Shown: positions 4,785 to 35,650 of the stretch, piece after piece
How the letters are laid out: every line of letters starts with the position of its first letter
Numbering within the stretch: the first letter of the stretch is position 1
IMG/VR virus record: IMGVR_UViG_3300044655_000269
Span: 1 to 47,895 of that record
Origin: a virus
Strand: one strand, 5' to 3'
DNA length: 47,895 nucleotides
Translations under genes and position numbers: made by a program
Notes under the pieces: generated by a model
Database searches by the model: none
Seen by the model: only the letters and a program-made list of their open reading frames with translations
Told to the model about the DNA's origin: nothing

Positions 4785-4943
4785 ATGGATAAGCCTAAGA
4801 CATTAGAAGAAAAGAAAGAACAGTTTTATGAAGGCCTAAGAAAGATCATCGAGGCTAAAGAAAAGCTAGGTCTAACAAAAGACGCTACCTATAAAAAGTC
4901 AAAAGAACTCTTGGATAAGCTGACACAAGAAAAGACACAGTGA
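4785..4943 (+). CDS. Small charged helical protein
   Basis: A 52-residue, Lys/Glu-rich, predicted all-helical protein with TAGGAG 10 bases before its ATG. Its TGA overlaps the GTG start of the following enzyme gene, so it may couple that gene's translation. No family recognised; no signal peptide or membrane segment. Confidence 0.6.
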   Translation: MDKPKTLEEKKEQFYEGLRKIIEAKEKLGLTKDATYKKSKELLDKLTQEKTQ

Positions 4944-6442
4944 ATAAGATTATCACCCGTGACTGGATAAACGACGACATTGTTATCCGTTGTGGTGTGA
5001 CATACAAGATGCCTAGAAAGGTGTTGATTGAAAGTTACACCAAACAGGATTTGTGTCAGTTTATAAATTTCTGGAAGGTAGAATTGCTATCTAATGGAGC
5101 CAAGCGTGGTGATAAGATAGGCTATTGTATCGAACCTTCAGACATTCACTCAACCGCACTTATGTTTGCTGCTTTCGAGTTAGGCATGAGTGTGGTTGTT
5201 TTGCATAGACCAAACAACGAAAGAGAATGTCTGGCCCCTAAAAGTAACTCACACCTACCATTAGACTTCTTTGTTTATCTGGCAGCGTATGAGCATATTC
5301 CATTACTAGTTACCGCTATAGTTCATTTCAGTCGTAACTCAAAGAAGGTATTGGTGTATGGTAATCACGATTGGCAGAACCAGCGTTCGACTCTAAAATC
5401 AGACGAAGAAACTCCCATACTAGCCCAGCCGGGTGATGTTGCTCTATTGTGCAATAGCAGCGGCACTACTGGTGTTCCTAAACTCATATCACACACCCAT
5501 GAGTTTTTCTATGACCTATGCACGTATAACTGGGAGGTGTTGAAATATGATCCTGAGGATCATTTCATGCATCTTTCTTCGCTCAATCATGGTGCCGCAT
5601 TATCATTTGTTCTACCTGCACTACACATATGCAAGCATAACTATTTTTATGTTGATATGGGTGGCAAAGGTGAGTTACAATCAGATCCTTTCTATCAAGA
5701 ATACTACGATCTAACTAACGACTGTATTGAGCATGGCATCACCAGAATATTCTGTGCAGGTGGTGGCGCTATCAATGAGTTTATCAAACACCTAAGAGCA
5801 AGAGATATCAAGCTACCCAATACTAACATTATGATACTATCATTCATTAGTCCTGACTGGCGTGCTGCTATCAGCGAGAGTGTGCTACAAAGCATTAACA
5901 GCCCATTTGGATGTAGTGAGGTATGTGGTCCAGTGTTCATGACATGGCTTGATAAGGATACTGTAGATAAGTTTGATCCTAGATATCTGGGATATCCTAC
6001 AGAAGGCTTCTATGATACAAAGGTCATTGATGGTCGTATTCATACTAGCACACCTTACAATCAGGTTGTCTTTGATGACATTGTAGAAGAAAGAGCCGAT
6101 GGCTATTACTTCAAGAGTAAGAACAGACTGCAAAAGCTAAACGATATTGATATCAATCCAGTGGATATTATGGAGATACTTGAGCATTATAATACCAGAT
6201 ATGCGTTTGAGATTTATATTGACGAGGTCTATAATGAGTTGTATATTCTAACGTCAGACTCGAAAACGTATAAGATGGGTAAGTTTATCGTGGAAGATAT
6301 CGACTCGTTCTATCACGGTAAGATACCCACCGCTAATGTCATATATGATCCCGAACTAAACCAAGCCACGATAAGCAACAAAGCGGACAAAGATAAGCTG
6401 GCAGGTATAGTTGAAAGATATCGCTTGACAAAAAACTCCTGA
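4940..6442 (+). CDS. Adenylate-forming enzyme (AMP-binding, ANL superfamily)
   Basis: A 500-residue protein of the acyl-CoA synthetase/adenylation-domain superfamily, which activates carboxylates as acyl-AMP. The ATP-binding A3 loop is clear at about residues 170-186 (CNSSGTTGVPK). An A5-like FGCSEVCGP lies at 323-331, and an A7/A8-like segment runs GYYFKSKNRLQKLNDIDINP at 388-407. The small C-terminal subdomain is present but diverged; I do not see the usual PKTxSGK lysine motif, so it may adenylate an unusual substrate or be altered in the second half-reaction. Start is GTG 4940, overlapping the previous stop. No carrier protein, thioesterase or other biosynthetic gene lies nearby. Rare in T4-like phages; probably acquired. 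Confidence 0.85.
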   Translation: MNKIITRDWINDDIVIRCGVTYKMPRKVLIESYTKQDLCQFINFWKVELLSNGAKRGDKIGYCIEPSDIHSTALMFAAFELGMSVVVLHRPNNERECLAPKSNSHLPLDFFVYLAAYEHIPLLVTAIVHFSRNSKKVLVYGNHDWQNQRSTLKSDEETPILAQPGDVALLCNSSGTTGVPKLISHTHEFFYDLCTYNWEVLKYDPEDHFMHLSSLNHGAALSFVLPALHICKHNYFYVDMGGKGELQSDPFYQEYYDLTNDCIEHGITRIFCAGGGAINEFIKHLRARDIKLPNTNIMILSFISPDWRAAISESVLQSINSPFGCSEVCGPVFMTWLDKDTVDKFDPRYLGYPTEGFYDTKVIDGRIHTSTPYNQVVFDDIVEERADGYYFKSKNRLQKLNDIDINPVDIMEILEHYNTRYAFEIYIDEVYNELYILTSDSKTYKMGKFIVEDIDSFYHGKIPTANVIYDPELNQATISNKADKDKLAGIVERYRLTKNS

Positions 6443-10479: not shown

Positions 10480-10507
10480 GGGGAGCAGAAATGCTCCCCT
10501 TTCTTTT
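10480..10507 (+). terminator. Rho-independent terminator of gp32
   Basis: GGGGAGCA (10480-10487), loop GAAA, TGCTCCCC (10492-10499), then TTTCTTTT. It closes the replication block where it meets the convergent minus-strand hub operon. In the opposite direction no T-run follows the stem, so termination is mainly rightward. Confidence 0.92.
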
Positions 10508-13391
10508 ATCTTGCGTTACCGTAACTAAAGTGATTTTGTCCTACCTCACCTGGTGTTGATTCACCATTCACATTGAACATTGCACGTTGAAACGATGGTG
10601 TATTCATTGGCTGGGCTATCTGCTTCATTGCATGATCAGGATTGAAGCCCTGTGTAGGTGGTGCCTGCATTGATGCCTGGCGTGCCATTACCGGAGTGCT
10701 TTGTTGTTGAGCAATAGCAGCCATTTCATTTCTCATAGCGCCCATTTGTGCTGCTGACATATCAGGTGCAGGTCCAGGTGCTGGCATTGCTCCTGCTGTT
10801 CCTTTAATAGGTGGTAATGTGGCCGCTTGAACACTAGAGCCTGGCATAACAGTAGCAGACATATTCTTACCTTCACCAAAAGCATTGAGCGAAGGCATAG
10901 GTGCAGTTGTTGATGCTGTTGCTGGAGTTGCTCTTACTCCAGGTGTGGTTGCTAGAGGTGATGCTGCCGCTGCTCCTTGCGAACCAATAGGTGCTAACTT
11001 AGCAAGCCTTTCACCGAGCGTAACCTCTCTAGCTGCCTGTGCTGTAGTGGCTGCTGGGCCAGTTGGAGGTGTAGGAACACCAGGACCGACTGTAGGTGTA
11101 GTTGCTTGTGCAGATGCTACTTGTGTTGTTGGGTAATCTCTATTATATCTACCAACATCCATAGCTAGAATGTCTTGCTTCTCTGCACCATATCTCTTAG
11201 AGAAGTTTTGTCTATTCTTCATTGTGTATTGATGTCTTGCATCATATAGAGCGGCGATTTGTTGCTCTGGTGTTCCGCCGGCAGCACCTTTAGCCATGGT
11301 AACAATTCTATTTGCTTTACCATGCTGCACTGACATACTGAATAGAGCCTCTTGCACACGAGGATCGTCTACATTGTATCCTAGCTTCTTTGCGTGTCTA
11401 TAGACTGGCTCATAGTGTGTTCTAGTAATGAATGAGTGCTGTGACTTTGCAAAGCCTGTAGGATCATTCTGTGCTATTTGTTTATACACCTTATTGAACT
11501 GTGGTGTGCCTGGTGTCAAACCTGCAAAGTTATGAGCATATGGTTGAGCCTCTTTAGAACTGACATACTTAGCCATTGTTCCAGTCTTAGTAGCCAACTG
11601 ATGTTCGCCATATGATATGCCGCCAGGATCTTTTCTACCAGTTGAAACTGTATGAACACCTCGCTTACCTGATTCATATTGGCGTGATAACTCACCTAAA
11701 CTGCTACGATGCACGATAGGTGTTGTATCAACTGGTTCGGCTGGCTTACTGCTAGATGCTGTCTGTCTTGGTGTTACACCTAGATGGCGTCTCGTATGTC
11801 TGCCATGTGATCTATGTGTTCTTCTGGGTCCATCACCCATACCTTCACCAGATATTCTCTCGCCCATGAAAGAACCAATAAGTGGCATAATAAAGCCCAT
11901 AGCAGTTGTGACAAGACCGAGAGGTGTTGCTGACTGCATACCGCCGATACCACCCATCATTCCCATCATCATGTTCATTGGGCTGCCCATTAGATTAGGC
12001 ATCATACCATTAGGCTGCATTAGAGAGGCAGTCTGACCATCGACAGGACCACCACCATAATCACCACCCTGATAGACTTCGCCTGATACACCAGGCGCTG
12101 CTTCACCACCTGCACCAGGAGCGCCAGAGTTAGAGCCAATTGACTTCTTTTGTTCGGGTGTTGCTAGCCCGTGTCCATACTGTAGAGCCTCTTGAGATAC
12201 TTCGTCATGAACTTTACCATTAGATGAAATGAGTCCCCATGATGTTGCTTGTCCTGTGTTGCCGATCGGATAGCTATTCTTATTAACCCATCTTGTCTTA
12301 GCACCACCGGAGTTATTATACTGCTCCATCAATAGGAAGTCACCCTTTTCATTAGGTGCTGTTAGTGCTACGCCTGTGTGATATCCAGCACCCGTTCTAT
12401 CTGCACCACCATTGTTATACTGTTTAGTTGCTACAACCTGACCCGCTTTGATATCACCATCAACGATAGTCCATCCTGATGATCTACCGATACTAGGATT
12501 AAATGCTTTACCTAGTGTAGCACATTGCTGGGCGTTTCTTGTATCATATAGATTATTATCTTTAGGTACGACATATCCACTCTTAACATCAAACGACATG
12601 CCACCGCCAGATTGCCCACCACTGCCTGCTAGAGGTGTAGCGCCTTGCTTTGCTCTTTCTTTATCGGTTGCTGTAGCAGTTGAATCATCGGTAATGTTTA
12701 GACCATTATAGTATTGCATACGGGCGGTTACTGCACCACCAACGTCTTGTGGTCTTTCATAATCAGATACGAGTGTATTCATACGCACAGAGGTAGGTGC
12801 ATTATCGTCCGTCAATGCACTGTATGATTTACCATAATAATTTTTCATTTCCCAGATGGCTGCTTTAGTCTGTTGTGCTACAGACATGTCCTTAGGATAA
12901 GCACCAAACTGGTTTTTAATTCTCTCTGCTCTTGATGGATCCCATTGCACAATACCTTGTGACATATGCAAACGATCCCAGTGATGATCACCAGGATTCT
13001 TTAGAGACTCACCTGACATATTAGCAACAAGGATTCTAGCAGCGGAGTCTGATAGTCCTTCTGCTCTTGCTGCCTTATACGCCTCTTGCTGATTTGCTTT
13101 TAGATTGCCAGTGGCAGTTGTTGAACTATACTGCTGGCGCATATTCTCAAGCCAGCCAATCTTCTTATTCTGTTCATTTGTGGCTGCTGCCTGTCTCTCG
13201 GCAGTCTGTTTAGAGATAGCAGCACGAAAGCCGCCAATATCTGGTGTTCCTCTTTTGAAATAATCAGGGAAGAGTAATGCAATCTCGGTAGGTGTGAGTT
13301 GAGACAGTAAAGAGTTATTAACACTGACAGCTTGTCGTCTATCAGCCATACTCATTTTTCTTAGCTTGTTAAAGTTTGATTTGTTTGCCAT
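10506..13391 (-). CDS. Multi-domain tail lysozyme/murein hydrolase protein
   Basis: A 961-residue protein with up to three cell-wall modules. Residues about 100-232 resemble the phage tail-lysozyme family: ANMSGESLKNP (E128 the likely catalytic Glu) and SQGIVQWDPSRAERI. Residues about 285-390 resemble a cysteine amidase/NlpC-like fold with QC at 289-290 and GYHTG (H338). Residues about 565-750 resemble the VgrG3-C-like lysozyme: YESGKRG (E573) and DPGGISYGEHQLATKTGTM. Between modules 2 and 3 is a Met/Gly-rich hydrophobic stretch (about 465-510) and then a His/Arg-rich linker; the C-terminal 200 residues are Ala/Pro/Thr-rich. Last gene of the hub operon. Presumed to sit in the tail tube or hub and cut murein at injection. 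Domain calls are by pattern only. Confidence 0.82.
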   Translation of the reverse strand: MANKSNFNKLRKMSMADRRQAVSVNNSLLSQLTPTEIALLFPDYFKRGTPDIGGFRAAISKQTAERQAAATNEQNKKIGWLENMRQQYSSTTATGNLKANQQEAYKAARAEGLSDSAARILVANMSGESLKNPGDHHWDRLHMSQGIVQWDPSRAERIKNQFGAYPKDMSVAQQTKAAIWEMKNYYGKSYSALTDDNAPTSVRMNTLVSDYERPQDVGGAVTARMQYYNGLNITDDSTATATDKERAKQGATPLAGSGGQSGGGMSFDVKSGYVVPKDNNLYDTRNAQQCATLGKAFNPSIGRSSGWTIVDGDIKAGQVVATKQYNNGGADRTGAGYHTGVALTAPNEKGDFLLMEQYNNSGGAKTRWVNKNSYPIGNTGQATSWGLISSNGKVHDEVSQEALQYGHGLATPEQKKSIGSNSGAPGAGGEAAPGVSGEVYQGGDYGGGPVDGQTASLMQPNGMMPNLMGSPMNMMMGMMGGIGGMQSATPLGLVTTAMGFIMPLIGSFMGERISGEGMGDGPRRTHRSHGRHTRRHLGVTPRQTASSSKPAEPVDTTPIVHRSSLGELSRQYESGKRGVHTVSTGRKDPGGISYGEHQLATKTGTMAKYVSSKEAQPYAHNFAGLTPGTPQFNKVYKQIAQNDPTGFAKSQHSFITRTHYEPVYRHAKKLGYNVDDPRVQEALFSMSVQHGKANRIVTMAKGAAGGTPEQQIAALYDARHQYTMKNRQNFSKRYGAEKQDILAMDVGRYNRDYPTTQVASAQATTPTVGPGVPTPPTGPAATTAQAAREVTLGERLAKLAPIGSQGAAAASPLATTPGVRATPATASTTAPMPSLNAFGEGKNMSATVMPGSSVQAATLPPIKGTAGAMPAPGPAPDMSAAQMGAMRNEMAAIAQQQSTPVMARQASMQAPPTQGFNPDHAMKQIAQPMNTPSFQRAMFNVNGESTPGEVGQNHFSYGNAR

Positions 13392-13610
13392 TTACATCTT
13401 TTTTCTTAACATAGATTGGAGTTGTGCCTTCTGCTCATTCTCTAGGTCTTTCATTTTCTGCTCTTGTTCTTTTAGGAACTGTGTGAGCATTTCAATGTAT
13501 ATTTGTCTCTCCCACGGTATCATGCCTTCAATATCCGATAGTCCCCATTTGTGATGATGCATCAAACTAAAGTTGTTTTTAAAATGCGTCATCAAGCCTT
13601 CATAGGCCAT
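13392..13610 (-). CDS. 51: gp51-like baseplate hub assembly protein (probable)
   Basis: A 72-residue protein; HHHKWGLSDIEGMIPWERQIYIEMLTQFL resembles short proteins following gp26 in T4-like phages and annotated as gp51, the hub assembly catalyst. The second half is a charged coiled-coil-like helix (KEQEQKMKDLENEQKAQLQ). It lies between gp26 (2-base gap) and the tail lysozyme gene (adjacent). The gene order 26-51 is the T4 order, which supports the call; sequence similarity to T4 gp51 itself I cannot judge. Confidence 0.65.
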   Translation of the reverse strand: MAYEGLMTHFKNNFSLMHHHKWGLSDIEGMIPWERQIYIEMLTQFLKEQEQKMKDLENEQKAQLQSMLRKKM

Positions 13611-13612
13611 GA

Positions 13613-14335
13613 TTATAGAAAAAAATCAGCGAAATCTGTATACCTCACATCATGGTGAAAGCCACATTTAGGGCAGTCTGCTTCTATTCTTACAGCGAAT
13701 GTTGGGAAGTTATCTACAAACTCCTCCAGCTTTCTAAAGTTTTCTTCTGTCAGTGCCTCGATGAACTCCTGCAAATCTTCTTTAGTCTGATCTCTAGCAG
13801 GATATGTTCCATCTTTATCGTAAATGAAATCGATTGACTGTATTACCATATCAATCTTTCTATCAATCTCTAAGCCACCGTCTATGCGTTTCATAGCACC
13901 GTAGCCAGGGTATTTCATTCTTACACCCTTATCACCACCTAGCTTGATATCATTAGATACATCTTCTTCTAATATCTCACAGTTATTGATATCCATTTCT
14001 GCATTGAATACCTCACCGCAAGTCTCACCATCTTCTAATACGTTATTGCATGATAGTTTAACAGCAACCTTTTCACCAATGCTCTTGGCTCTTAGTGCAA
14101 TGAATAGATAATCAACATCAAAGAATGGTGCCTTATCTACGTTAAACTCACCACGCACAACACAGTTATTGACCACCTGCTTAACGGTATTAACAACTTC
14201 GTTTTGATCGTTTGACTCTAGTGCTATTAGCAGTAGCTTTTCTTCTTTAACTGAGAAAGGTCTTACTGTAATAATCTTATCACTAGAAGGAACTTTCATT
14301 TCATATGTTGGTACATCAATCTTAGGCAATGCCAT
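13613..14335 (-). CDS. 26: Baseplate hub protein gp26
   Basis: A 240-residue member of the T4 gp26 baseplate family (T4 gp26 is 208 residues), needed for hub assembly. Signatures are PTYEMKVPSSDKIITVRPFSVKEEKLLLIALES at the N-terminus, FFDVDYLFIALRAKSIGEKV in the middle, and a Cys-containing segment (CNNVLEDGETCG) typical of relatives in marine T4-like phages. The C-terminus carries another CPKCGFHH motif, so a zinc site made of the two Cys pairs is likely. It lies in the 48-54-26-51 operon. Confidence 0.85.
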   Translation of the reverse strand: MALPKIDVPTYEMKVPSSDKIITVRPFSVKEEKLLLIALESNDQNEVVNTVKQVVNNCVVRGEFNVDKAPFFDVDYLFIALRAKSIGEKVAVKLSCNNVLEDGETCGEVFNAEMDINNCEILEEDVSNDIKLGGDKGVRMKYPGYGAMKRIDGGLEIDRKIDMVIQSIDFIYDKDGTYPARDQTKEDLQEFIEALTEENFRKLEEFVDNFPTFAVRIEADCPKCGFHHDVRYTDFADFFL

Positions 14336-14351
14336 AATCTAAAACTCCATA

Positions 14352-15080
14352 TTATTGTGCTATCTTTTTAGCGATACCTTCTGAATCGCCTGGACGATCC
14401 CAATACTTATAGGCGAATGATACCTGCAATCTTAGAATGTCGGTATCTGCCCATGTTACTTGCTGAGGATTGACCATCATAGGCCATGCTTTTAATAAAC
14501 GCCAGCCGTAAATGACTTCTGGTTCATATTTAATTGTTGGGTTGGCAGAAGGACTTATGCTTTGTGAGTTACGTTGTGATGCAGATGTTATACCATTACC
14601 GGGTGACCAATAGCTGCCACCTGCACTAGATACACCAGAATCTTTCTTACCAAACTCGGCATAATGAAACACCTCAATAGTTGAGTAGTAATCTTCTGGA
14701 TACTTAAAGTGAAATGATGTTGGTGGGTTGATAATATCCATCCAATCGTCAAATAGCTGGCGCTCGAATGTCTTGCTTCTTACAAGAAATGATAATGTAA
14801 TACCGTCACCATATGTCGTATTACCTGGTGTCATTTGCTTAGGACCATAGTAACGCATTTCTGCTACCTGAAAGCCACGGCCGGGAAACTCGGCAGCGTC
14901 ACATGCAAAGATCATACTCTTGCTAATATCATTGAAATAGCTTAGTCGGCTCAATAGTCCTTGTGGGTTGATTCTAACGATAAAGCGACAACTTTTAGTG
15001 ACTTGATCCTGCCCATTGAGAGCAGATAGCATATCATTGATTGCTATTTGTGTGGGAGGATTATTACCTGAATATGCCAT
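14352..15080 (-). CDS. 54: gp54-like baseplate/tail tube initiator
   Basis: A 242-residue protein with the tail-tube-like fold pattern of the gp19/gp54 group: CRFIVRI near the N-terminus, ACDAAEFPGRGFQVAEMRYYGPKQMTPGNTTY, FLVRSKTFERQLFDDWMDIINPP, then a C-terminal LLKAWPMMVNPQQVTWADTDILRLQVSFAYKYW. In T4, gp54 caps the baseplate and starts tube polymerisation; the order 48-54 with a stop/start overlap here matches. A copy of the tail tube itself (gp19) is less likely because that gene normally sits with the sheath gene. Confidence 0.7.
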   Translation of the reverse strand: MAYSGNNPPTQIAINDMLSALNGQDQVTKSCRFIVRINPQGLLSRLSYFNDISKSMIFACDAAEFPGRGFQVAEMRYYGPKQMTPGNTTYGDGITLSFLVRSKTFERQLFDDWMDIINPPTSFHFKYPEDYYSTIEVFHYAEFGKKDSGVSSAGGSYWSPGNGITSASQRNSQSISPSANPTIKYEPEVIYGWRLLKAWPMMVNPQQVTWADTDILRLQVSFAYKYWDRPGDSEGIAKKIAQ

Positions 15081-15847
15081 TAGTAGCCCTGTTCGATAAG
15101 TGTTTTATCTACGATCTGCATTTCAACAAATTCCATTGTCAGTCTTGAGGTGACGGCACTACCATCTTCAAAGGTACTAAACTCTGTTTCTGGATTATAA
15201 TCAACATCAACTCTGACGAAAGCACCTTTTGCTACTTTCGGAATCTTTTCATTTGGTCTCCAGCCACCGCTGGCGTCTTTAATCCAGAAATCAATCTCCC
15301 ATTCTGATGGGCTTTTAAATTGTAGGCTATCATAGCTGGTGATGCCTGTAATCTCTGGTGCAGCATAATATCTGAAACGATTTAGTAGTCCTGTTCCTGT
15401 TGATGTGCCATATAGCATTTCAGAGTCAGCTTGATTTTGTGGTGCAAATGTAAATGAAAAGTTATAACGTCTTAGTGAGGTTCCTCTATAGAGAACTTCG
15501 ACACCAGGATTGATTTGTCGTCTAAACAAACCACCAGAAAGAGCATTAGCACCAGATATAAGATCAGAGCCAACACCGACAACGGCAGACGCAACACCTG
15601 CACCAAGTCGTGCTAGTTTAATTTCATCATATTCATGGCCCTGCTGAAAACTTAGATTGTTTGATTGTCCGCCGCCGGGCATATACAATTGAAATGAGTC
15701 GAGCATTTGTCTGCCGTTGAGCAACCCACGAGCGGCACCTGCCGCCTGAACAAACGACTGTGGTGTATATGCTGAAAACTGGACCATCGCACCATATTCT
15801 GGTGAATCCAATAAATCAGATGGAAATCTATATGAGTTAGCTGGCAT
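15080..15847 (-). CDS. 48: gp48-like baseplate tail tube cap
   Basis: A 255-residue protein, shorter than T4 gp48 (364). It shows YRGTSLRRYNFSFTFAPQNQADSEML followed by RFRYYAAPE, comparable to the T4 gp48 segment TWDLTPRSTEDLMAIINIYQYFNYF, and ends with a beta segment and MQIVDKTLIEQGY in the position of the T4 terminal ITLNRASLYAGTF. It is the first gene of the minus-strand hub operon, with GGAG 7 bases before its ATG and a CTAAATA element upstream in the 42-base divergent gap. Together with gp54 it would connect hub, tube and tape measure. Confidence 0.7.
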   Translation of the reverse strand: MPANSYRFPSDLLDSPEYGAMVQFSAYTPQSFVQAAGAARGLLNGRQMLDSFQLYMPGGGQSNNLSFQQGHEYDEIKLARLGAGVASAVVGVGSDLISGANALSGGLFRRQINPGVEVLYRGTSLRRYNFSFTFAPQNQADSEMLYGTSTGTGLLNRFRYYAAPEITGITSYDSLQFKSPSEWEIDFWIKDASGGWRPNEKIPKVAKGAFVRVDVDYNPETEFSTFEDGSAVTSRLTMEFVEMQIVDKTLIEQGY

Positions 15848-17565: not shown

Positions 17566-18836
17566 TGTCTGATAATTATTTTGATCGTGGCTTAGTCCGA
17601 CTAAACGGACAACTTGGTGGTGCTGATAGCTATACGCAGGTTACCTGTAAAGAGGTATCTTGTACCGAGAGTTTATTGACACCAGGTCTGCAAACATCAG
17701 CGACATTTCAATCTCAAATCTACAAGAATGATGTATTCAAGAATTGGGATGCCATCAAGAATAAGCCCATGACGATTACTATGGAAGATGGTTATGGTAA
17801 TCAAATGTCATTGCAGCAAACAGTTTATAGAATGGATGGTAGAGAGTTTCATCCAGTCAATATTTCACAGGTTGAAGAATTTACTGTTCATGCATGTGAT
17901 CAATCTCTATTAGACGATGCTAAGAAACTTGTAAGCAAATATTGGAAATGCACCACACCTTCTAAGATTGTAGAGGAGGTTCTTGGCACTTGTTTAAATA
18001 TTCAGAACACATATATTCAAACTGCTGAACCCGCTCGTGATTATGCAGCGGAAATGATTCACCCATTTCAAGTAATTGCACAGCAAGCCAATGTGGCACT
18101 AGATGGTGACGATCCATCTTTTGTGCATTATATGACATATTCTAATAGAGCCCAAGGTGCTAACTTTATGCAGGGCGGTTCTTATTGGCAGCCTACACAT
18201 AACTTCCGTTCATTGACACATTTGGCCAGACAGGCACCAAGATATACATTCTTTCATTCTGAAACTGGCTTGGCTGGTGGTGCAGATTATAATAACGAGA
18301 AGTATAGAACACCCAACGCATTTAATCGTCCTGCTATTCAGTTTATGTTCCCATGTGACTTTGATTTACTATCTGACCTATTAAATGGTGTAGATGAACA
18401 AGGACAAAATATCAACGCAGGTTCGTTCATGAACGCTATGGATATGGCCGCTGGCTTTCTTACAGGTGGTGGCGGTGGTCGTATGCAAATGTGCGCCCCT
18501 AATGGTAACTTTAAACAGTCACTAACTAATAAAGGTTCAGCCGGTCAACAAAATGGTTGCCCATCAAATGTCGAGCAGCACCTATTAAAGCGTCAAGCTA
18601 GAATGGGTCTGTTAGAAAAAGATAAAGTTGCTCTTAGAATGATCGTAGCATGGAATCCATATATCAGCGTAGGTGATGTTATCTCTCTAACATGGAAAGA
18701 TAAAGACAGAGGACAGAATTTATACGGGTCTGGTGATTATCTAGTTGCATCACTAACTCATAGAGTGCAGAAAGGTGGTTATGCTACGACTACACTCGAT
18801 TGCGTATCAAATACAGTTGGACAGGGAATAGTATAA
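17565..18836 (+). CDS. 27: gp27-like baseplate hub protein
   Basis: A 423-residue protein in the position where T4-like phages with this layout encode the central hub. N-terminal beta part: VTCKEVSCTESLLTPGLQTSATFQSQIY; central KLVSKYWKCTTPSKIVEEVL; the C-terminal beta part LRMIVAWNPYISVGDVISLTWKDKD with DYLVASLTHRVQKGGYATTTLDCVSN is the common gp27/VgrG-like hub end that carries the spike. Similarity to T4 gp27 (391 residues) is at fold-pattern level. It overlaps the following gp5-like gene (TAATG), consistent with hub-spike partners. Confidence 0.7.
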   Translation: MSDNYFDRGLVRLNGQLGGADSYTQVTCKEVSCTESLLTPGLQTSATFQSQIYKNDVFKNWDAIKNKPMTITMEDGYGNQMSLQQTVYRMDGREFHPVNISQVEEFTVHACDQSLLDDAKKLVSKYWKCTTPSKIVEEVLGTCLNIQNTYIQTAEPARDYAAEMIHPFQVIAQQANVALDGDDPSFVHYMTYSNRAQGANFMQGGSYWQPTHNFRSLTHLARQAPRYTFFHSETGLAGGADYNNEKYRTPNAFNRPAIQFMFPCDFDLLSDLLNGVDEQGQNINAGSFMNAMDMAAGFLTGGGGGRMQMCAPNGNFKQSLTNKGSAGQQNGCPSNVEQHLLKRQARMGLLEKDKVALRMIVAWNPYISVGDVISLTWKDKDRGQNLYGSGDYLVASLTHRVQKGGYATTTLDCVSNTVGQGIV

Positions 18837-20359
18837 TGGGAAACGCAAGCACACCTTCACATCCCCATGGTGAAATAACACCAATGGTAATTGCTGGCGG
18901 TGATAAGACCGATCCAGCGCAGCGCCGTGATGGCTCAATGAAGCTATTTGATCCTAGTCGCTGGAGTCAGCAAGATTATGATCTAAGCGATTTGTGGTTC
19001 AATGGCTTTCTACAGAACCCCACACAAATGGGACAGATGAGTACCGGCGGTGGTCTTGATCCTGGTACAATCGTATATGTATTGAAGCAGGCGGGTGAGC
19101 CTGGTGGTGTTATTCTAGGTGCAGCAAGCGGCAACCGCAAAGGATCGTCTGGCGGTTCTATCGGTGGACAGAACTTGATGGACGGCAGCATTATGCAAGA
19201 GTTGGCATCAAGAAAGATCGGTGTTAATGTTCCTCCACAGATTGAAGAAAAGACAGAACGTGGCGCCAAGATTAGAAAGATTAAAGAAAAGGGTGAGCAG
19301 CATTCATTAGATATGCTCGACGGCTTGCCTCTACACGGTGCATTGTTCCAGATGACTGGCTTTAGATTGCCAGAATTAAAAAGCATTCCTACTGCCAAGC
19401 AGAAGAATGATAAGATGATGAATAACCAGATGATGCAACAGCTACAAGGACAGGTAATGTCCATGGCGCAGATGTTTCAAGGGTTGATGAATAATGGTCG
19501 TAGCGGTACATCGGCCGCCGGTGGTATTCCTGCTTCGTCAGGTATGATGAGTACCGTTTCTAATCCTAATACAGGAACAGAAACACAAGTCGATTTATCT
19601 AAGACAGGCGCTGGTCTAGGTCCTGACGGTGTATCGTATATGGATGAAGTTCTACAGACGCTAGAACCACACATGCAGACTGCCGTTAAGTCACTTGCTA
19701 AACTAGTGCAAGGACTAGAAACAAATGACGGTGTAGAATTTCCTACAGGTGGTGCTGTTCATTATACTATCTTTATGGAGAATGCTGCTGGTCTATTAGC
19801 GCAAGCAACTACTATTGACGACCTAATGATTGGTATGCAGAGACTACAATGGGACGAGAGTTTATTCGGTCAAGATAAATTATCACCAGTTGTCTTTGAG
19901 GTAGACACCGCTCATGGTGCAGCATTTCAGTATATGTATTATGACGGACATATTGAGACTGTTTATACCAGCAATACAATGAACAGCATGAACGCATGGG
20001 CTAATACTATTACAAGCCCAACCACATCACCTGCCGTAGGTTCATCAACACCTTCTAGCAGCACAGGAACAACACCATCAAGCGGCTCTGGCTCTGGGCA
20101 GGGCCAACAAATGCAGTCAATGATGCAGCAAATGTTTGGTCAGTCTGCACAGATTATGCAAGAAATGTTCAAGCGTTTGGCACCACAGCAAGAAAAAGAA
20201 GCCAAGAAAATGCACGAGAAGCTAAATCAGTCTGCTGATGCCAAGAAGATACAATCAATCTCAAAAGATACGATTGAAGGTGGCGAACCTTTAAGCAAGC
20301 AACATTATCAGGCTGATGCTGCTGGTACAGATCAGTTCAATTTACAATTTTTGGAGTAA
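18836..20359 (+). CDS. 5: gp5-like OB-fold baseplate hub/spike adaptor
   Basis: A 507-residue protein from ATG 18836 (AGGGA 9 bases upstream, TAATG overlap); the in-frame ATG at 18800 would lie inside the previous gene. Residues about 25-100 (QRRDGSMKLFDPSRWSQQDYDLSDLWF ... LDPGTIVYVLKQAGEPGGVILGA) fit the OB-fold N-domain of T4 gp5. There is no lysozyme domain: instead come a Met/Gln-rich segment (about 190-215), a Ser/Gly/Thr-rich linker (about 400-425) and another Met/Gln-rich helix (about 430-465). It lies between the gp27-like hub and the beta-helix spike, so it probably links them. The assignment rests on position and the N-terminal pattern. Confidence 0.65.
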   Translation: MGNASTPSHPHGEITPMVIAGGDKTDPAQRRDGSMKLFDPSRWSQQDYDLSDLWFNGFLQNPTQMGQMSTGGGLDPGTIVYVLKQAGEPGGVILGAASGNRKGSSGGSIGGQNLMDGSIMQELASRKIGVNVPPQIEEKTERGAKIRKIKEKGEQHSLDMLDGLPLHGALFQMTGFRLPELKSIPTAKQKNDKMMNNQMMQQLQGQVMSMAQMFQGLMNNGRSGTSAAGGIPASSGMMSTVSNPNTGTETQVDLSKTGAGLGPDGVSYMDEVLQTLEPHMQTAVKSLAKLVQGLETNDGVEFPTGGAVHYTIFMENAAGLLAQATTIDDLMIGMQRLQWDESLFGQDKLSPVVFEVDTAHGAAFQYMYYDGHIETVYTSNTMNSMNAWANTITSPTTSPAVGSSTPSSSTGTTPSSGSGSGQGQQMQSMMQQMFGQSAQIMQEMFKRLAPQQEKEAKKMHEKLNQSADAKKIQSISKDTIEGGEPLSKQHYQADAAGTDQFNLQFLE

Positions 20360-20365
20360 TTAATA

Positions 20366-21580
20366 ATGGCAAGTGGCCCAGAGTCTAAAAATACAAACCC
20401 AGGTAAAGAAACACCAGATGAATTTAATGTCTTTGGTGATGCTCGTGGTCGTAAAGGTGCTGGTGAATATCCTAATTACTGGAACTTTAAAGACCGTTCT
20501 GGTAACTCATTCGGTATGGACGCTTCTGAAGGTAATGAGTCAATTACAATTCAGCATAGAGGTGGTTCAGCGGTTCAGTTTCATCCAGATGGTTCTCTAC
20601 ACATTACAGCACACAACGGTAAATATGAAATAACATTCGGTGAAAATCGTATGACTATTTCTGGTGCTCAAGATATCACAGTCAAGGGTGATGCATCATT
20701 GAGAGTATATGGTGATTATAACGTCACCTGTCATAAGAACTACAATCTATCTGTTATGGGTGATATCAACATTACTGGTAAAAATATGAATAGAGCCATT
20801 CGTGGCAATATGGACACACAAGCTAAGAACGTCAATAAGAAGATCGAAGGATCTATCAGTTATCAGGCGCAAGGTGGACAGGCATATGTTTCTAAAGGTG
20901 CCACTACGGTTGCTTCACAGGGTGATAAAACATTCTTGGCTGGTGCTTCTGGATTACATGCTGCCGTTACTAACGAAGGTGATATGTCATTCTTAAACGA
21001 AAAGGGTGATATGTACCACGAAACAAAAGACGGTAAGGCAGATCAGAAGTATGCCAGCGGTGGTAAAGAAGTTAAGATTATGCACAAAGATGGTAAGACA
21101 GATCATACCGCCGACGAAGAAATCACCACAAAATCTACTAATAAAGGTATTACTACAACCGCCAAGCAAGACATTACTACTAAGTCGGAGTCAGGTGGTA
21201 TTCAAATGAAAGCCGATGCTGGTTCTATTTCGGCACAAGCACAACAGAATATTGAAGTTAAGTCACAACAAGATACCCACGTTATTGCACAGGGTCATGC
21301 TGCTATTGAAGGCTCAAGTGGCACTACAGTCGGTAATGCTACCGCTACCACTAACGTTGTAGGTGGTGCATCTGGTGTTAATATTGATCCACTTGGTGGT
21401 CTATTGAACCTAGCAGGCGGTGGCGGCCAGGCCTTCGGTGGTCTTGGGCAGCTATCATTTAACTTCCTAACAGGTGATCAGGCAACTGGTATTCAAGATA
21501 GACAAGCAACTAGAGCAAATCAGCCACAGGCAGAAGCCGACGCTTCCGCTTGGATCAATGCTCTTGATAGAACGGCATAA
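20366..21580 (+). CDS. 5: gp5-like central spike with triple beta-helix
   Basis: A 404-residue protein. The N-terminal part PNYWNFKDRSGNSFGMDASEGNESITIQHRGGSAVQFHPDGS is a VgrG/gp5 spike entry motif. From about residue 85 to 330 there are repeated short strands (DITVKGDASLRVYGDYNVTCHKNYNLSVMGDINITG, then ITTKSTNKGITTTAKQDITTKSESGG) typical of the intertwined trimeric beta-helix of T4 gp5C and T6SS VgrG. A Gly-rich tail (LLNLAGGGGQAFGGLGQ) follows. There is no lysozyme domain. The ribosome site is TTGGAG, 10 bases before the ATG. It should form the membrane-piercing needle below the hub. Confidence 0.85.
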   Translation: MASGPESKNTNPGKETPDEFNVFGDARGRKGAGEYPNYWNFKDRSGNSFGMDASEGNESITIQHRGGSAVQFHPDGSLHITAHNGKYEITFGENRMTISGAQDITVKGDASLRVYGDYNVTCHKNYNLSVMGDINITGKNMNRAIRGNMDTQAKNVNKKIEGSISYQAQGGQAYVSKGATTVASQGDKTFLAGASGLHAAVTNEGDMSFLNEKGDMYHETKDGKADQKYASGGKEVKIMHKDGKTDHTADEEITTKSTNKGITTTAKQDITTKSESGGIQMKADAGSISAQAQQNIEVKSQQDTHVIAQGHAAIEGSSGTTVGNATATTNVVGGASGVNIDPLGGLLNLAGGGGQAFGGLGQLSFNFLTGDQATGIQDRQATRANQPQAEADASAWINALDRTA

Positions 21581-22013: not shown

Positions 22014-24098
22014 ATGGCAAGTTCCAACAATATACTTAGAGTTGCGGATCTAGACTTCTTCTCTATTCGCAATAATCTAAAAGAGTATCTCCGCAGTCAG
22101 AATACTTTTCAAGATTATGACTTTGAGGGTTCTGGTATGTCTGTAATGCTAGACATTCTGGCATACAATACCTATTACAATTCATATTACTTGAATATGG
22201 CTGCTAACGAAGCCTTTCTTGATACGGCGCAGCTTAGAAAGAACATCGTATCACACGCCAAGGTGATCAACTATGTGCCTATGTCTATGCGTGGTGCAGA
22301 GGCTATGGTAAATGTTGTTGTCACACCAGGTCCCGATGAAGATCAGATCATCAATTATATTACACTAGACAAATGGACAACCTTTCTTGGTGCTGATAAG
22401 GAACAAGTTAATTACCCATTCGTTGCAATACATTCTAATACCGCATATAAGAGCAACGGTTCATTTGTGTTCAGCAATGTAGTTGTTAGACAGGGTGAGG
22501 CTGTTACAATGCAGTTCCCAGTGCTGGCTAATAACACATCAAGACGCTTTCAGATTCCATCTTCTAACGTCGATACATCAACTCTAACTATTTCAGTTCA
22601 GGAGTCCGCATCAAATACTACCACAACTGAATATGTATTAGCCGCTGACATTTCAGAAATTCAAGCTAACTCTACGGTATATTTCATCGAAGAAGATCAG
22701 GACTCATATTACACAGTTTATTTTGGTGATAACTACATCGGTAAGAGACCTTCTAATGGCTCTATCGTTATTGCAACTTATCTTGATACTGTAGGTCCTA
22801 GAGGCAACAATATTTCAAGAATTGGTCTATCTGACGCTGACGGTATTGCAGGATTCAGTAGCAATGTTAGAGTTACAGTAACAAGCGCCTCTGCTGGTGG
22901 TTCTGATAAAGAAACGGTAGAACAGGTTCGTTTCCGTTCTACTAACTATTACACCTCACAAAATCGTGCTGTTACCTCTGGTGACTATGAAGCACTCGTT
23001 ACTAAAGACTTCCCTAACATTGAAGCTGTTTCTGTTTGGGGTGGTGAAGATAATGATCCTATCGTATATGGTAAAGTGTTCATGTCTCTCAAGACCAAGG
23101 GTTATTATACACTAACCAATCTAGAAAAAGAAACAATTAAAAATAGCCTTGTTGAAAATCGCAACGTTCTAACTGTTAAGCCAGATATCGTCGATCCTGA
23201 ATATGCATTCGTTCTTATTCGTGGTAAGGTTAGATATAATCCTAACTTGACAACTAGAACACAAGGGCAAATTCTAAATCTAATCAAAGAAGCTATCTAC
23301 AATTACGCCACACAGGAACTATACACATTCAAATCAACTTTTAAGTTGTCTAAGATGCAGTATTATATTGAACAGTCAGAAGCATCTATTACATCTTCTG
23401 ATATCGATATCTTCCTACAACGCCGTGTCAAGATGGAGATTGGCGGAACTAATACATATGTTATTAGCTTTAACACACCGCTTCGTAAGGGTGACTATGC
23501 GTTCAAGCTAAACACATATCCAACTCTTAAAGTAAAAGACTCCGCAGCTATTCAGCGTGACGTATTCATTGAAGAAACTCCAGAGTCCTATACTGGTATT
23601 GATTCGGTATCAATTCTAAATCCTGGTGTTAATTATACTAGCAAACCAACACTAACAATTACTGGTGACGGTTCTGGTGGTGAAGTTGAGCCAGTCATCG
23701 TCAATGGACGTTTTGTTTCTGTCCGAGTTATAAACCCTGGTATTAATTACACCAGAGCGTTCGTTGAGATTACCGACAGTCAGGGTTCTGGCGCAGTTCT
23801 AGCAGTTAACCTAAGATCAACAACAGGAACACTAAGAACATATTACTATAAGCCAAACGGTGAAAAGGTTATCGTTAATGCAGCAGCAGGCACTATTGAT
23901 TATCTAACTGGTAAAATTATTCTAGATACATTGACACCTATTTCAATGCCAGCAAACGATTTCTATGATCAAGACGTTCTTACAATTAACGTTGTTCCTG
24001 AACAGGGCGTTATTGTTCCTCTGAGAAATCGTATTCTCGCTATTGACACTAACAACATACAGGCAATTCAGCTAGACATGGTAGCCGAAACAGCATGA
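22014..24098 (+). CDS. 6: Baseplate wedge protein gp6
   Basis: A 694-residue homologue of T4 gp6 (660 residues), the wedge dimer that forms the inner baseplate ring. Family features are ILRVADLDFFSIRNNLKEYLRSQ, FQDYDFEGSGMSVMLDILAYNTYYNSYYLNMAANEAFLDTAQ, RKNIVSHAKVINYVPMSMRGAEA, a central VRFRSTNYYTSQNRAVTSGDYEALVTKDFPNIEAVSVWGGED block (shared with P2 gpJ-like proteins) and MQYYIEQSEASITSSDIDIFLQRR. Two Gly-rich beta segments with LNPGVNYTSKPT/INPGINYTRAFVEI near residues 530-600 are repeats also found in the next protein. Confidence 0.95.
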   Translation: MASSNNILRVADLDFFSIRNNLKEYLRSQNTFQDYDFEGSGMSVMLDILAYNTYYNSYYLNMAANEAFLDTAQLRKNIVSHAKVINYVPMSMRGAEAMVNVVVTPGPDEDQIINYITLDKWTTFLGADKEQVNYPFVAIHSNTAYKSNGSFVFSNVVVRQGEAVTMQFPVLANNTSRRFQIPSSNVDTSTLTISVQESASNTTTTEYVLAADISEIQANSTVYFIEEDQDSYYTVYFGDNYIGKRPSNGSIVIATYLDTVGPRGNNISRIGLSDADGIAGFSSNVRVTVTSASAGGSDKETVEQVRFRSTNYYTSQNRAVTSGDYEALVTKDFPNIEAVSVWGGEDNDPIVYGKVFMSLKTKGYYTLTNLEKETIKNSLVENRNVLTVKPDIVDPEYAFVLIRGKVRYNPNLTTRTQGQILNLIKEAIYNYATQELYTFKSTFKLSKMQYYIEQSEASITSSDIDIFLQRRVKMEIGGTNTYVISFNTPLRKGDYAFKLNTYPTLKVKDSAAIQRDVFIEETPESYTGIDSVSILNPGVNYTSKPTLTITGDGSGGEVEPVIVNGRFVSVRVINPGINYTRAFVEITDSQGSGAVLAVNLRSTTGTLRTYYYKPNGEKVIVNAAAGTIDYLTGKIILDTLTPISMPANDFYDQDVLTINVVPEQGVIVPLRNRILAIDTNNIQAIQLDMVAETA

Positions 24099-27031
24099 CC
24101 GATAAAATCGATAACAAAACATCTATACTAGTTAAGTCACAGGTACCTGATTTCGTCAGAGCCGACCATGAGTTGTTTGTTCAATTCATGGAGCATTATT
24201 ATAAGTTCTTAGAACAAGACGGACAGCTACAGTATGTCACTAAAAACTTTCCTCGCTTTCTTGATATTGATGAAATCAAGATGGATATCGATCATGATAT
24301 ACAAGAAGGTGAAGAACATTATATTGAAGAAGAAAGTGACTATCATGCCTTCCTACAGAAGCTATACGATAATTACACAGCACTAATTCCTGACAGTATT
24401 CTAGCTGATAAGGTCGTGTTGCTAAAACATGCCAAGGAGTTTTATCGTACCCGTGGTTCAGAGAAGTCAATTCGCTTTCTTATGCGAGCCCTGTATAACC
24501 AGGATATTGATTTCTATTATCCTAAAGATGATATTCTTCGTGCGTCAGATGGTAAATGGTTCGTAGAAAGATCACTAAACGTTAAAGACTTTGCGGTCGA
24601 TAATGTTGCCAACAGTTCTGCATATTCTCTGTTTATCGGTAGAACAATTCGTGGTGCTAATTCTAATTCTACTTGTACCGTTGAAACTGCCGATCAGTAT
24701 TATGATAACGGTGTTCTAGTCACAGAACTTAAAGTTTCCGCAGTTGAACAGGACTTTGAAAACGGTGAAGAAATCTTCACGTTCTATGATGACAACGGCC
24801 TAGTCAAGAGACTGTCTTGTAATCTATTCTCTGGTCAGATTTACACCGTTACAGTAACAAACCCTGGTTCAGGATACGTTCAAGGTTCTGCTGTTCCTAT
24901 TAGTAGTAATAGTGGTTCTGGTGGTCTTGTCGTTATCTCTAAAGTTATTAGAGCATATCTTGAAGGTAAGATTAGATCGGTTGAGGTTACTCTACCAGGT
25001 GCTGGCTTTAGAGCAAACGACGCATTGCTATTCACTGGCGGTGGTGGTCGTGACGCCGCTGCTAACATCTTCGTTGTTAATGAGGACGAGACATATCATC
25101 CTTCTAGCTATGATATTATCGGTACTAGAATTATCGATGTTGCTAATAATGTAATCGCAAACACTCTAAACGTTAATCAGAGTGAAGCCTATACCAATAT
25201 GGCTAACATCTATGTCAATACATCAAATCTCATTATCTCGACAGGTATCGGTCCTGCAACAACTGTTAACCTAGATTATTGGGCATCTAATTCAAATGTT
25301 TATTTTGAGACTGGTGACGTTATCATGGCTAACAATGAGTTTGTTACAATTACTAGTAGTAATACAAAATCAAATATTATTACAGTATCACCAGCACTAT
25401 CAGGAAATATTGGTGGTTACTCTTTCGATATCTATAAGAAGCCTAACGCCAATACAGTAGTAGCCAATTCTATGATATATTGGCAGTATGCAAACTGCGG
25501 TCCTGTTCTTTCTGTTAAGATTACAAACCCAGGTCTAGGTTATTACGAACTACCATCAGTTGACGTTCTCTCTAATACCTTTGTTCGTTCTATGGGTATT
25601 CTTGGTAGAATGGAAATTGCAAACGGTGGATTCGGCTATGTTGTCGGTGATATTCTAGAGTTCAATAACAGATATGGATATTATGGTGAAGGTGCTAATG
25701 GTGTCGTTACAATCGTCGATTCCAATGGTTCAATCCAGCAAGTATCATTTACACCTCGCACAGGTTACACAATCGGCGGTTCAGGATATATACAGTCTGC
25801 ACTACCTAACGTTTCTGTTATCTCACAAAACGTCAATGCATATGGTGCGAATGTTCAAGCGGTGGCAATTATCGGTGACGGTGAATTACTTGAAGCCACA
25901 TCAAATATCATTGGTGGTATTGAGCAGTTGCGTGTTCTATCTCGTGGTGCTGGATATCAACCAAACACAACTCTAAATCTTTCTACACAGGGCGACGGTC
26001 TAGCACAGGCAGATATTACAGTTATCACTGGTATCTATACATACCCAGGCCGTTATGTCAATGATGATGGTCATCTATCTGGCTATAACTTCCTACAGGA
26101 TCGTGATTATTATCAGCCTTATTCATATGTCATTAAGTCTGACACATCGCTTGAGAAATACAGAAAGTCAATCAAAGAACTTTCACATCCTGCTGGTATG
26201 AAGCTATTCGGTCAGCATGTTTATAGAAGTGAAACCGAAAGATATGATATCAACGTGGCAGCCAATGTTGTTAACACATATATCACAACAGACATTGCAT
26301 ATCAAAATCTAATTCTAAAATTTGCTACATCAAATGGCTCAAGTTATGTTCCTACAGGAAACTTTGCATATCTAACATATGACACAAGAAGAGGAACAAC
26401 AAACACCGCAGCCAATGTTGGCAACGTGATATATGATACTCAGAACATTTGGTACAATGCTGCTAATACTCAGCAATACGCCAATCTCAAAGCTAACACT
26501 TACTTTGCATCAGCTGGCTTGCGTGTAATGGGTATCTACAGTAATGGTGGTGCTATCATGTCACATGCCAATACTATGAATGTTTCAAACGTCATTTCGG
26601 TTGCTGCATGGGTAAATCAGTCAAACGTTCTAGCATATAAGACAATTCTAACAAAGAGTGATAAGTCAACCTCAGGATATGAATTGTATATGAACGGCAG
26701 CAACCCAACGATTGATATCTATCCATCGTCTGCTGATAACTCACTAGTGATCACAACAGGTCTAGCAAATAATAGCTGGCAGTTTGTTGCATTTACATAT
26801 GACGGTATTAATATCCGTGGTTACTCAAACGGCGCCTTTATGTCCATGTCGACAGGAACATCAACTGGTGTCACTGACTCTACACAACAACTAATGGTTG
26901 GTCGTCGCAGCGGCACACCACCTCTACCGTTTGAAGGCAAGATTGCTTCTGTTGAGATATATAATAAAGTGCTTTCAAACAACGAAATTCAAACACTATT
27001 CAATAGAGACCGCCGTAGATACGGCTTATAA
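24095..27031 (+). CDS. Large wedge/virion protein in gp7 position with lectin-like C-terminus
   Basis: A 978-residue protein starting at an ATGA overlap with gp6. The N-terminal 160 residues (VPDFVRADHELFVQFMEHYYKFLEQDGQLQY ... AKEFYRTRGSEKSIRFLMRALYNQD) are typical of large baseplate-associated proteins in T4-like phages of marine bacteria. The middle contains several VTNPGSGYVQG/ITNPGLGYYELP beta repeats like those in gp6 and gp8. The last 200 residues (AAWVNQSN ... LTKSDKSTSGYELYMNG, then WQFVAFTYDGINIRGYSNG, and GKIASVEIYNKVLSNNEIQTLF) are a LamG/concanavalin-like jelly roll that binds sugars in other proteins. It takes the slot of T4 gp7 and may combine wedge and surface-binding roles. 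Confidence 0.8.
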   Translation: MTDKIDNKTSILVKSQVPDFVRADHELFVQFMEHYYKFLEQDGQLQYVTKNFPRFLDIDEIKMDIDHDIQEGEEHYIEEESDYHAFLQKLYDNYTALIPDSILADKVVLLKHAKEFYRTRGSEKSIRFLMRALYNQDIDFYYPKDDILRASDGKWFVERSLNVKDFAVDNVANSSAYSLFIGRTIRGANSNSTCTVETADQYYDNGVLVTELKVSAVEQDFENGEEIFTFYDDNGLVKRLSCNLFSGQIYTVTVTNPGSGYVQGSAVPISSNSGSGGLVVISKVIRAYLEGKIRSVEVTLPGAGFRANDALLFTGGGGRDAAANIFVVNEDETYHPSSYDIIGTRIIDVANNVIANTLNVNQSEAYTNMANIYVNTSNLIISTGIGPATTVNLDYWASNSNVYFETGDVIMANNEFVTITSSNTKSNIITVSPALSGNIGGYSFDIYKKPNANTVVANSMIYWQYANCGPVLSVKITNPGLGYYELPSVDVLSNTFVRSMGILGRMEIANGGFGYVVGDILEFNNRYGYYGEGANGVVTIVDSNGSIQQVSFTPRTGYTIGGSGYIQSALPNVSVISQNVNAYGANVQAVAIIGDGELLEATSNIIGGIEQLRVLSRGAGYQPNTTLNLSTQGDGLAQADITVITGIYTYPGRYVNDDGHLSGYNFLQDRDYYQPYSYVIKSDTSLEKYRKSIKELSHPAGMKLFGQHVYRSETERYDINVAANVVNTYITTDIAYQNLILKFATSNGSSYVPTGNFAYLTYDTRRGTTNTAANVGNVIYDTQNIWYNAANTQQYANLKANTYFASAGLRVMGIYSNGGAIMSHANTMNVSNVISVAAWVNQSNVLAYKTILTKSDKSTSGYELYMNGSNPTIDIYPSSADNSLVITTGLANNSWQFVAFTYDGINIRGYSNGAFMSMSTGTSTGVTDSTQQLMVGRRSGTPPLPFEGKIASVEIYNKVLSNNEIQTLFNRDRRRYGL

Positions 27032-34869: not shown

Positions 34870-34879
34870 TGGAGAACAA

Positions 34880-35650
34880 ATGGAAATTCGTTTTGATTCA
34901 AGTGATTTTGTTGAACAAGTAGATATAGACTTTCAAGATGGTGCGGGACCTGTTCCCGCCCATCAGCATATCAGAGGTGGTGGATGGGTTGCTGAAACTG
35001 CCAAGGTAGACGATAACTGTTATATCGGTCCATTTGCCATGGTATATGGTGAAGCAAGAGTATCAGAGAACGTTATCATCAATGATTATGCTAGAGTATA
35101 TGGCAACGCCAAGATATATGGTAGAGCAAAAGTATATGGTGACTGTCAGGTATATGAAGAAGCACAAGTTTATGGTGATGCAAGAGTAAGCGGACACTCT
35201 AAAGTATATGGTAAAGTCAAAGTAATGGATAATGCCATGGTCTATGATTACTCAGAGGTTTATGGTGATGCCATCGTTCGTAACAATGCAGAGGTTCTAA
35301 ACTACGCTAAAGTATATGGTGGTGCTGATATATACGATTCCTTGAAAGTATATGCTAACAGTGTAGTCACCAGAAAACCTAAGGCATGTTATGGGTTTGA
35401 TTATAACGTAACGATTACAGATCATCATATCTGCCTAGGTTGTGTAGTTATACCACCAAAGTTTATTGATACTACTGCTAAAAAGATTGTAAGAATGATG
35501 GGGTATCATCCCGATGAAGCAGTTAAATGGGTACAGGCTCTAAAGTATGTTGCCGAGTTTCATGGATGCACAGATAGAGAAGAAGATATCGAAGCATATG
35601 ACGAACGTAAAATTATAACCGATTTGCTAAATGCTAGAGTAGGATTATGA
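34880..35650 (+). CDS. Left-handed beta-helix (hexapeptide repeat) protein
   Basis: A 256-residue protein from ATG 34880 (GGAG 7 bases upstream); the in-frame ATG at 34853 lies inside the previous gene. Residues about 40-175 are almost perfect hexapeptides of the form x-x-V-Y-G-D (AKVYGD, CQVYEE, AQVYGD, ARVSGH, SKVYGK, SEVYGD), giving about 20 rungs of a left-handed parallel beta-helix. The C-terminal 80 residues are alpha-helical. In acyl/nucleotidyl-transferases this fold carries an enzyme site, but no catalytic His loop is evident. It lies between the baseplate and the first fibre gene, and similar phage proteins are annotated as polymer- or structure-related. Role uncertain. Confidence 0.85.
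   Translation: MEIRFDSSDFVEQVDIDFQDGAGPVPAHQHIRGGGWVAETAKVDDNCYIGPFAMVYGEARVSENVIINDYARVYGNAKIYGRAKVYGDCQVYEEAQVYGDARVSGHSKVYGKVKVMDNAMVYDYSEVYGDAIVRNNAEVLNYAKVYGGADIYDSLKVYANSVVTRKPKACYGFDYNVTITDHHICLGCVVIPPKFIDTTAKKIVRMMGYHPDEAVKWVQALKYVAEFHGCTDREEDIEAYDERKIITDLLNARVGL

Follow-up and report, generated by a model that had tools for sequence, protein, structure and literature searches.

Which protein opens the cell wall for a T4-like phage whose gp5-like proteins carry no lysozyme? This question is raised by a 47,895-base IMG/VR fragment that was assigned to a T4-like phage and is called here the window, meaning the whole stretch of DNA that was analysed. A first-pass annotation had singled out one 961-residue protein, here named P0001, as holding a tail lysozyme, a cysteine amidase-like fold and a VgrG3-C-like lysozyme, and had proposed that lysis activity had moved from the spike to this hub- or tube-located multi-hydrolase. 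The pattern of three candidate wall-degrading modules, which differ in origin, was confirmed in a single chain (Table 1), with E128 (MSGESLKNP), C290 (NAQQCATLG), H338 (AGYHTGVAL) and E573 (RQYESGK) all at the positions proposed. The premise about the spike was equally sound, as no lysozyme domain was detected with Pfam in either of the window's two gp5-like proteins. The gp5 of HTVC008M also has no lysozyme domain.

Table 1 Features of P0001, of its operon and of the gp5-like genes (positions in the window; residue numbers refer to P0001)
Feature	Position	Strand	Basis
P0001, modular multi-hydrolase of 961 aa from the tail (hub/tube) operon	10506..13391	-	ORF list and Pfam; ATG start
C-terminal anchor, residues 908-961, PSFxRAxA...GHF...GN	10509..10670	-	alignment and family HMM
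Module 3, VgrG3-C-type muramidase, residues 564-739, E573 and D588	11175..11702	-	PF21277, PDB, Foldseek
Hydrophobic segment, residues 449-520 (core about 491-509)	11832..12047	-	hydropathy, identity, family HMM
Module 2, Tae2/BPSL0067-like papain-fold amidase candidate, residues 271-403, C290/H338/Q357	12183..12581	-	iterative HMM, hhalign, sister-module matches
Exchanged segment, codons 66-248, window phage versus L005	12648..13196	-	blastn
Module 1, phi29 gp13-type lysozyme, residues 100-224, candidate catalytic Glu E128	12720..13094	-	PF18013
N-terminal anchor, residues 1-66, LTPTxxAxLFPDYxxxxxPD	13194..13391	-	alignment, hmmsearch; common to about 40 slot proteins
72-aa ORF in gp51 (hub assembly) position	13392..13610	-	placed as the annotated gp51 of HTVC008M and Melnitz
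gp26-like baseplate hub or hub assembly protein	13613..14335	-	PF12322, E 3e-55; phrog_150 (baseplate hub)
Tail-tube-like protein	14352..15080	-	phrog_45, E 1e-24
Baseplate tail tube cap	15080..15847	-	phrog_230, E 4e-26
gp5-like hub protein by position	18800..20359	+	Pfam: no lysozyme and no Gp5_OB match
gp5 C-terminal/VgrG-spike-like protein	20366..21580	+	Pfam: DUF2345, E 5e-8; Gp5_trimer_C, E 5e-4

The P0001 gene is the last of a minus-strand operon that runs from the tube cap through the tube-like, gp26-like and gp51-like genes, and its 3′ end is convergent with gp32. A gene of the same type closes the tail operon, together with gp26, gp51 and tube genes, in the relatives examined; copies of P0001 itself, identical or nearly so, were found in the independent IMG/VR contigs L001-L006. 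Beyond a divergent junction, the plus strand carries the gp53-, gp27- and gp5-like genes. The earlier placement 'in the hub operon' is thus correct for a tail operon with tube cap, tube-like, gp26-like and gp51-like genes, but does not extend to the gp27- and gp5-like genes. By position and by predicted domain content, P0001 is among tail genes and has murein hydrolase domains. In HTVC008M and Melnitz, curli CsgF/CsgG genes are present between gp32 and the tail operon, and in the window gp32 directly adjoins P0001.

Three other loci of the window deserve mention. A baseplate wedge-like protein (24095-27031, plus strand) ends in a concanavalin-A/laminin-G-type lectin domain (PF13385, E 5e-20) and could form a sugar-binding baseplate arm. 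A hexapeptide-repeat protein (left-handed beta helix, YdcK-like; 34853-35650, plus strand) directly follows a 2155-aa gene, and a similar ORF is found in the relatives G001 and G003. A 500-aa ORF (4940-6442, plus strand) has an AMP-dependent synthetase-like signature, LLCNSSGTTGVPKLISHTHEF, which is odd for a T4-like phage; the relative L018 has a similar ORF.

Module 1 is a phi29 gp13-type lysozyme. It matched PF18013 (Phage_lysozyme2, phage tail lysozyme) with an E-value of 1.3e-11 and 45.3 bits, above the curated cut-off of 28.2, and a profile built from five module 1 sequences retrieved phi29 gp13 from the PDB (3csr, E 9e-9). E128 was conserved in all 25 distinct family modules and aligned with the ES motif of 3csr. 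Module 3 is a VgrG3-C-type muramidase: residues 565-723 matched PF21277 with an E-value of 7.4e-42 and 143.8 bits (curated cut-off, 27) and the VgrG3 structures 4noo/4nso with E-values of about 1e-21 (6e-22 for 4noo). E573 and D588, which are 15 residues apart, aligned with a Glu and an Asp of 4noo that we take to be the catalytic pair of VgrG3; in the family, the former was found in 9/9 modules and the latter in 8/9. The AlphaFold model of the full P0001 chain was weak (mean pLDDT 39), and a Foldseek search with it returned 4noo and 3csr/3csq, each with a probability of 1.00, and nothing else credible. The lysozyme assignments made earlier for the segments around E128 and E573 are therefore both borne out, the first by Pfam and the 3csr/3csq matches, the second by PF21277 and 4noo. 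A marginal match to Phage_GPA (E 0.026) was discarded as chance.

Module 2 was less straightforward. Searched alone, it had no direct match in Pfam, NCBIfam (E ≤ 10), PHROGs, the PDB, phage genomes or bacterial genomes. An iterative profile search with the slot proteins collected from related phages (i.e. the products of the gene in the P0001 position) linked it first to L099-like modules, and then to those of L102, L106, L094 and L087. These four sister modules scored 46.5, 46.9, 35.0 and 28.4 bits, respectively, against NF033857, the NCBIfam model of the BPSL0067 family (cut-off 27), and a sister-module profile matched the type VI secretion system (T6SS) peptidoglycan amidase Tae2 (PDB 6WIN) with an E-value of 2e-7. 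Profile-profile comparison with hhalign of module 2 and the Tae2/BPSL0067-type sister modules gave a probability of 95% and an E-value of 4e-8. When the search was reversed, in one pass and with decoys included, P0001 came out at E 0.0055 and the best decoy at 0.15, a result that is weak by itself, some clade-mates of P0001 being among the decoys. CHAP (PF05257) was not found when tested on the sister contigs, though controls worked.

The conservation of module 2 bears on the possibility that modules 1 and 3 are enzymes and that module 2 is degenerate or binds the wall. Such a reading would fit the lack of a direct family match and the low confidence of the structural model (AF2 pLDDT 37.8), of which the Foldseek list was noise, the model being too weak to use. 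Yet, module 2 is one of the best-conserved parts of P0001 (77-89% across the window's clade, with C290 and H338 invariant). The Cys and the Gln, as well as a Trp, are invariant in 21/21 distinct modules of this type, and Cys, His and Gln are each invariant in two alignments of separate sub-groups (C290, H338 and Q357 in A8, their counterparts in A7). Furthermore, other family members have known amidases or endopeptidases in the same position, and we consider a degenerate or wall-binding module 2 improbable. Module 2 is, to judge from this conservation, a real domain, and its predicted order of helices and strands fits a papain-like fold, the fold of Tae2 homologues (PMC10318531). We call it a candidate Tae2-like amidase, rather than a proven member, because the window's own module joins the family through intermediates and a profile link. 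The cysteine amidase initially proposed for C290/H338 has thus no direct database homologue to stand on, but gains a chain of profiles leading to the BPSL0067/Tae2 amidases and a conserved Cys-His-Gln set.

P0001 is one of about 40 slot proteins from IMG/VR that form what appears to be an undescribed family; both termini are conserved anchors, and the predicted hydrolase modules between them are interchangeable. The N-terminal anchor retrieved 58 loci, and no significant Pfam or PHROG match covered either anchor region of P0001. Family ORFs range overall from about 714 to 1242 aa, most of them being 730-1242 aa when complete, and a frequent order is anchor, glycosidase, amidase or endopeptidase, second glycosidase, linker, anchor. 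Of 43 members scanned with Pfam, 15 had PF18013, 10 had VgrG3-C and about 5 had SLT types; glucosaminidase, Amidase_2 and M23 were each seen in 2, and GH24 and GDSL each in 1. In the middle position, where Tae2 would be, L067 has Amidase_2, and L113 and L116 have M23. A GDSL/SGNH hydrolase (PF13472, E 7e-8) accompanies the anchors in the slot protein of L023 (1650-3791), indicating that a non-murein esterase may also be cargo. Inside an M15-like peptidase region, the slot protein of L032 (8897-11084) is broken up into two reading frames that overlap, through either a frameshift or a sequencing error. Between modules 2 and 3, P0001 also has a hydrophobic segment (TPLGLxTTAMGFIMPLIGS) with 67-93% identity in the window's clade; it was not detected with the family HMM in slot proteins outside this clade, and it may insert into the inner membrane.

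Comparison of closely related phages at the DNA level revealed replacement of single modules. With blastn, the window and L005 were 97.6% identical up to codon 66 and 94.6% identical from codon 249, with no identity in the interval, which encodes a lysozyme of a different sub-type. Identity between L013 and L014 was 99.3% as far as codon 63 and resumed at codon 261 (98.8%), the sequence between being replaced; L093 and L094 agreed at 99.3% as far as codon 108 and at 99.1% starting with codon 268, one having SLT and the other a gp13-type lysozyme. In these three pairs the edges were sharp on both sides and the flanks 94-99% identical. L086 and L089 were 97.4% identical to codon 182, where a glucosaminidase follows in L086 only, a case with one edge and two cut contigs. 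In the less close pair L070/L074 (87-88%), it is module 2 that differs (codons 222-452), the two having different Tae2 sub-types. The L027/L028 exchange, which is larger and less clean, was left out of the count. Exchange edges fall in linkers. The contigs behind these pairs are metagenomic, and chimeric assembly could imitate an exchange; this is unlikely to be the source, as the pairs come from different data sets, the same module-length replacement recurs in independent pairs, and module 1 of L005 matches L015, the one other contig compared with it at the DNA level, at only about 74%. The alignments are strong evidence for recombination of modules between phages.

We considered the possibility that the tape measure is none other than the slot protein, i.e. 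a gp29 equivalent with embedded hydrolases that determines the length of the tail and is ejected through the tube, a reading that is compatible with a role as lysin. In HTVC008M, the protein in the slot after gp26/gp51 is a tape measure protein according to its annotation and to tape measure PHROGs, and long hydrophobic proteins occupy the slot in Melnitz and SRB7757. The slot of the L033-L043 clade encodes a 560-aa hydrophobic protein, which in L033 weakly matches Hydrolase_2 (cell-wall hydrolase), and P0001 has kept one hydrophobic segment. Furthermore, the window and the relatives G001, G002, G014 and G015, a set with relatives of 55-75 kb and two of 164-174 kb, yielded no second tape-measure-like ORF when screened by length and hydropathy and with a few profiles, although these search criteria are limited. 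Against this, the lengths in the family span several hundred residues and vary with module exchange. Moreover, P0001 abounds in G/P/S/T linkers, not in long helices: a long helical region of constant length was not found in this linker-rich chain with its low-confidence model. The family anchors were not detected in the slot proteins of HTVC008M or Melnitz, and the match of P0001 to phrog_9570, considered in the comparison with tape measure families, covers the lysozyme module only. A second role as ruler is thus possible for the slot protein, though hardly as a classical one given the variable length and the many linkers; as an account of P0001, we regard the tape measure as possible but the less probable choice. 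Hydrolase modules alone would fit equally well an endolysin-like enzyme that acts from inside at the end of infection without being a virion component, and some phage proteins with VgrG3-like domains are annotated as endolysins. We rank this reading very low because, in the relatives examined, the gene closes a tail operon that also has gp26, gp51 and tube genes, and because the protein is some 1000 aa long and has anchors that stay constant; in HTVC008M, too, the corresponding slot encodes a tail protein.

The reading that we prefer, and hold to be probable, is that P0001 is a virion-carried modular tail lysin that degrades peptidoglycan and whose modules are swapped by recombination, its location in the virion and its activity being deduced from gene position and domain content. 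Its N- and C-terminal anchors would probably hold it in the hub/tube assembly, as gene position suggests, with the enzyme modules and the hydrophobic segment on flexible linkers between them. Upon tail contraction, P0001 would be released into the periplasm, where the glycosidases would cut glycan strands and the amidase stem peptides, making a local hole in the wall for DNA entry. P0001 would in this way stand in for the lysozyme that is absent from gp5. Homologous recombination in linkers and conserved flanks would swap single enzyme modules between phages.

In phi29 gp13, too, a glycosidase is combined with a domain that cuts peptides, of the M23 type. This tail-tip morphogenesis factor (PDB 3csq/3csr) is a tail-carried wall enzyme, as predicted for P0001, and its lysozyme domain is homologous to module 1; phi29, however, has a short tail and infects a Gram-positive host, and gp13 has two catalytic domains where P0001 has three, with Tae2- and VgrG3-type partners. 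The C-terminal muramidase of Vibrio cholerae VgrG3, a T6SS spike effector (4noo), is homologous to module 3, with matching Glu and Asp, but is fused to the spike, whereas in P0001 it is part of a separate slot protein. Tae2/BPSL0067 (T6SS amidase effector 2, 6WIN; papain-like, PMC10318531) shares the Cys-His-Gln set and includes the sister modules by profile; the window's module is divergent, joins through intermediates, and is here one module of a phage tail protein. The literature searched contained no report of Tae2 from the tail of a phage.

T4, with its gp5 tail lysozyme and gp29 tape measure (PMC3004832), has the same kind of virion, and the slot operon contains homologues of its gp26 and gp51. 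In contrast to T4, the lysozyme is absent from the gp5-like proteins and the predicted enzymatic function is in the separate, modular P0001, the presumed task being the same. In the cyanophage S-SRM01, gp041 (M23 peptidase, weak SLT) also comes after gp26/gp51 in the hub operon, preceded by the hydrophobic gp040, but has no detectable homology to the anchors. Multi-hydrolases occupy the slot in about 40 contigs, and S-SRM01 has its hydrolase pair in the hub operon, so that the predicted removal of lysis from gp5 is a common trait within this section of the T4-like phages. The transfer from spike to hub/tube protein that had been proposed for the window is consistent with the three modules, the gene position and the gp5-like proteins; the view that it is an unusual solution is not, a multi-hydrolase being found in the same slot of so many related contigs.

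Tail lysins with several domains, as well as lysins located in tape measure proteins, are already known (PMC10194240), and so is the shuffling of domains (PMC10684548). The former are virion-associated lysins of enterococcal phages, some of them inside tape measure proteins, and belong to other phages and families; they are not known to show exchange of modules between near-identical phages, in contrast to the P0001 family. Domain shuffling is known in receptor-binding proteins, endolysins and others (PMC10684548); the process is the same, but here it affects a T4-like hub/tube-operon lysin and is module-precise between phages up to 99% identical. As far as shown by the literature searched, what is new is the family with its anchors, the joint presence of two modules of T6SS-effector type, Tae2 and VgrG3-C, in one tail protein of a T4-like phage, and the module-precise replacement seen between near-identical phages.

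The exchanges suggest adaptation, in this part of the tail, to bacterial walls of different kinds. A bolder proposal, on which our confidence is evenly balanced, is that the family acts as a cartridge holder: the constant ends would dock in the hub/tube, single modules would be recombined between phages that are nearly identical elsewhere, tuning wall penetration to the host, and the protein might double as tape measure. The pool of modules comprises VgrG3-C and Tae2, both shared with type VI secretion effectors, phi29-type lysozymes, SLT, glucosaminidase, Amidase_2 and M23. Wall penetration is usually seen as a fixed function of the tail, and host range is put down to the fibres. If the proposal is true, wall chemistry would be a second, separately evolving barrier to host range, one that is testable through natural variants. 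Two T6SS murein-effector families would then serve as interchangeable parts of phage tails, a concrete link between contractile tails and the evolution of T6SS effectors, and the modules would represent a set of enzymes adapted to the walls of environmental bacteria.
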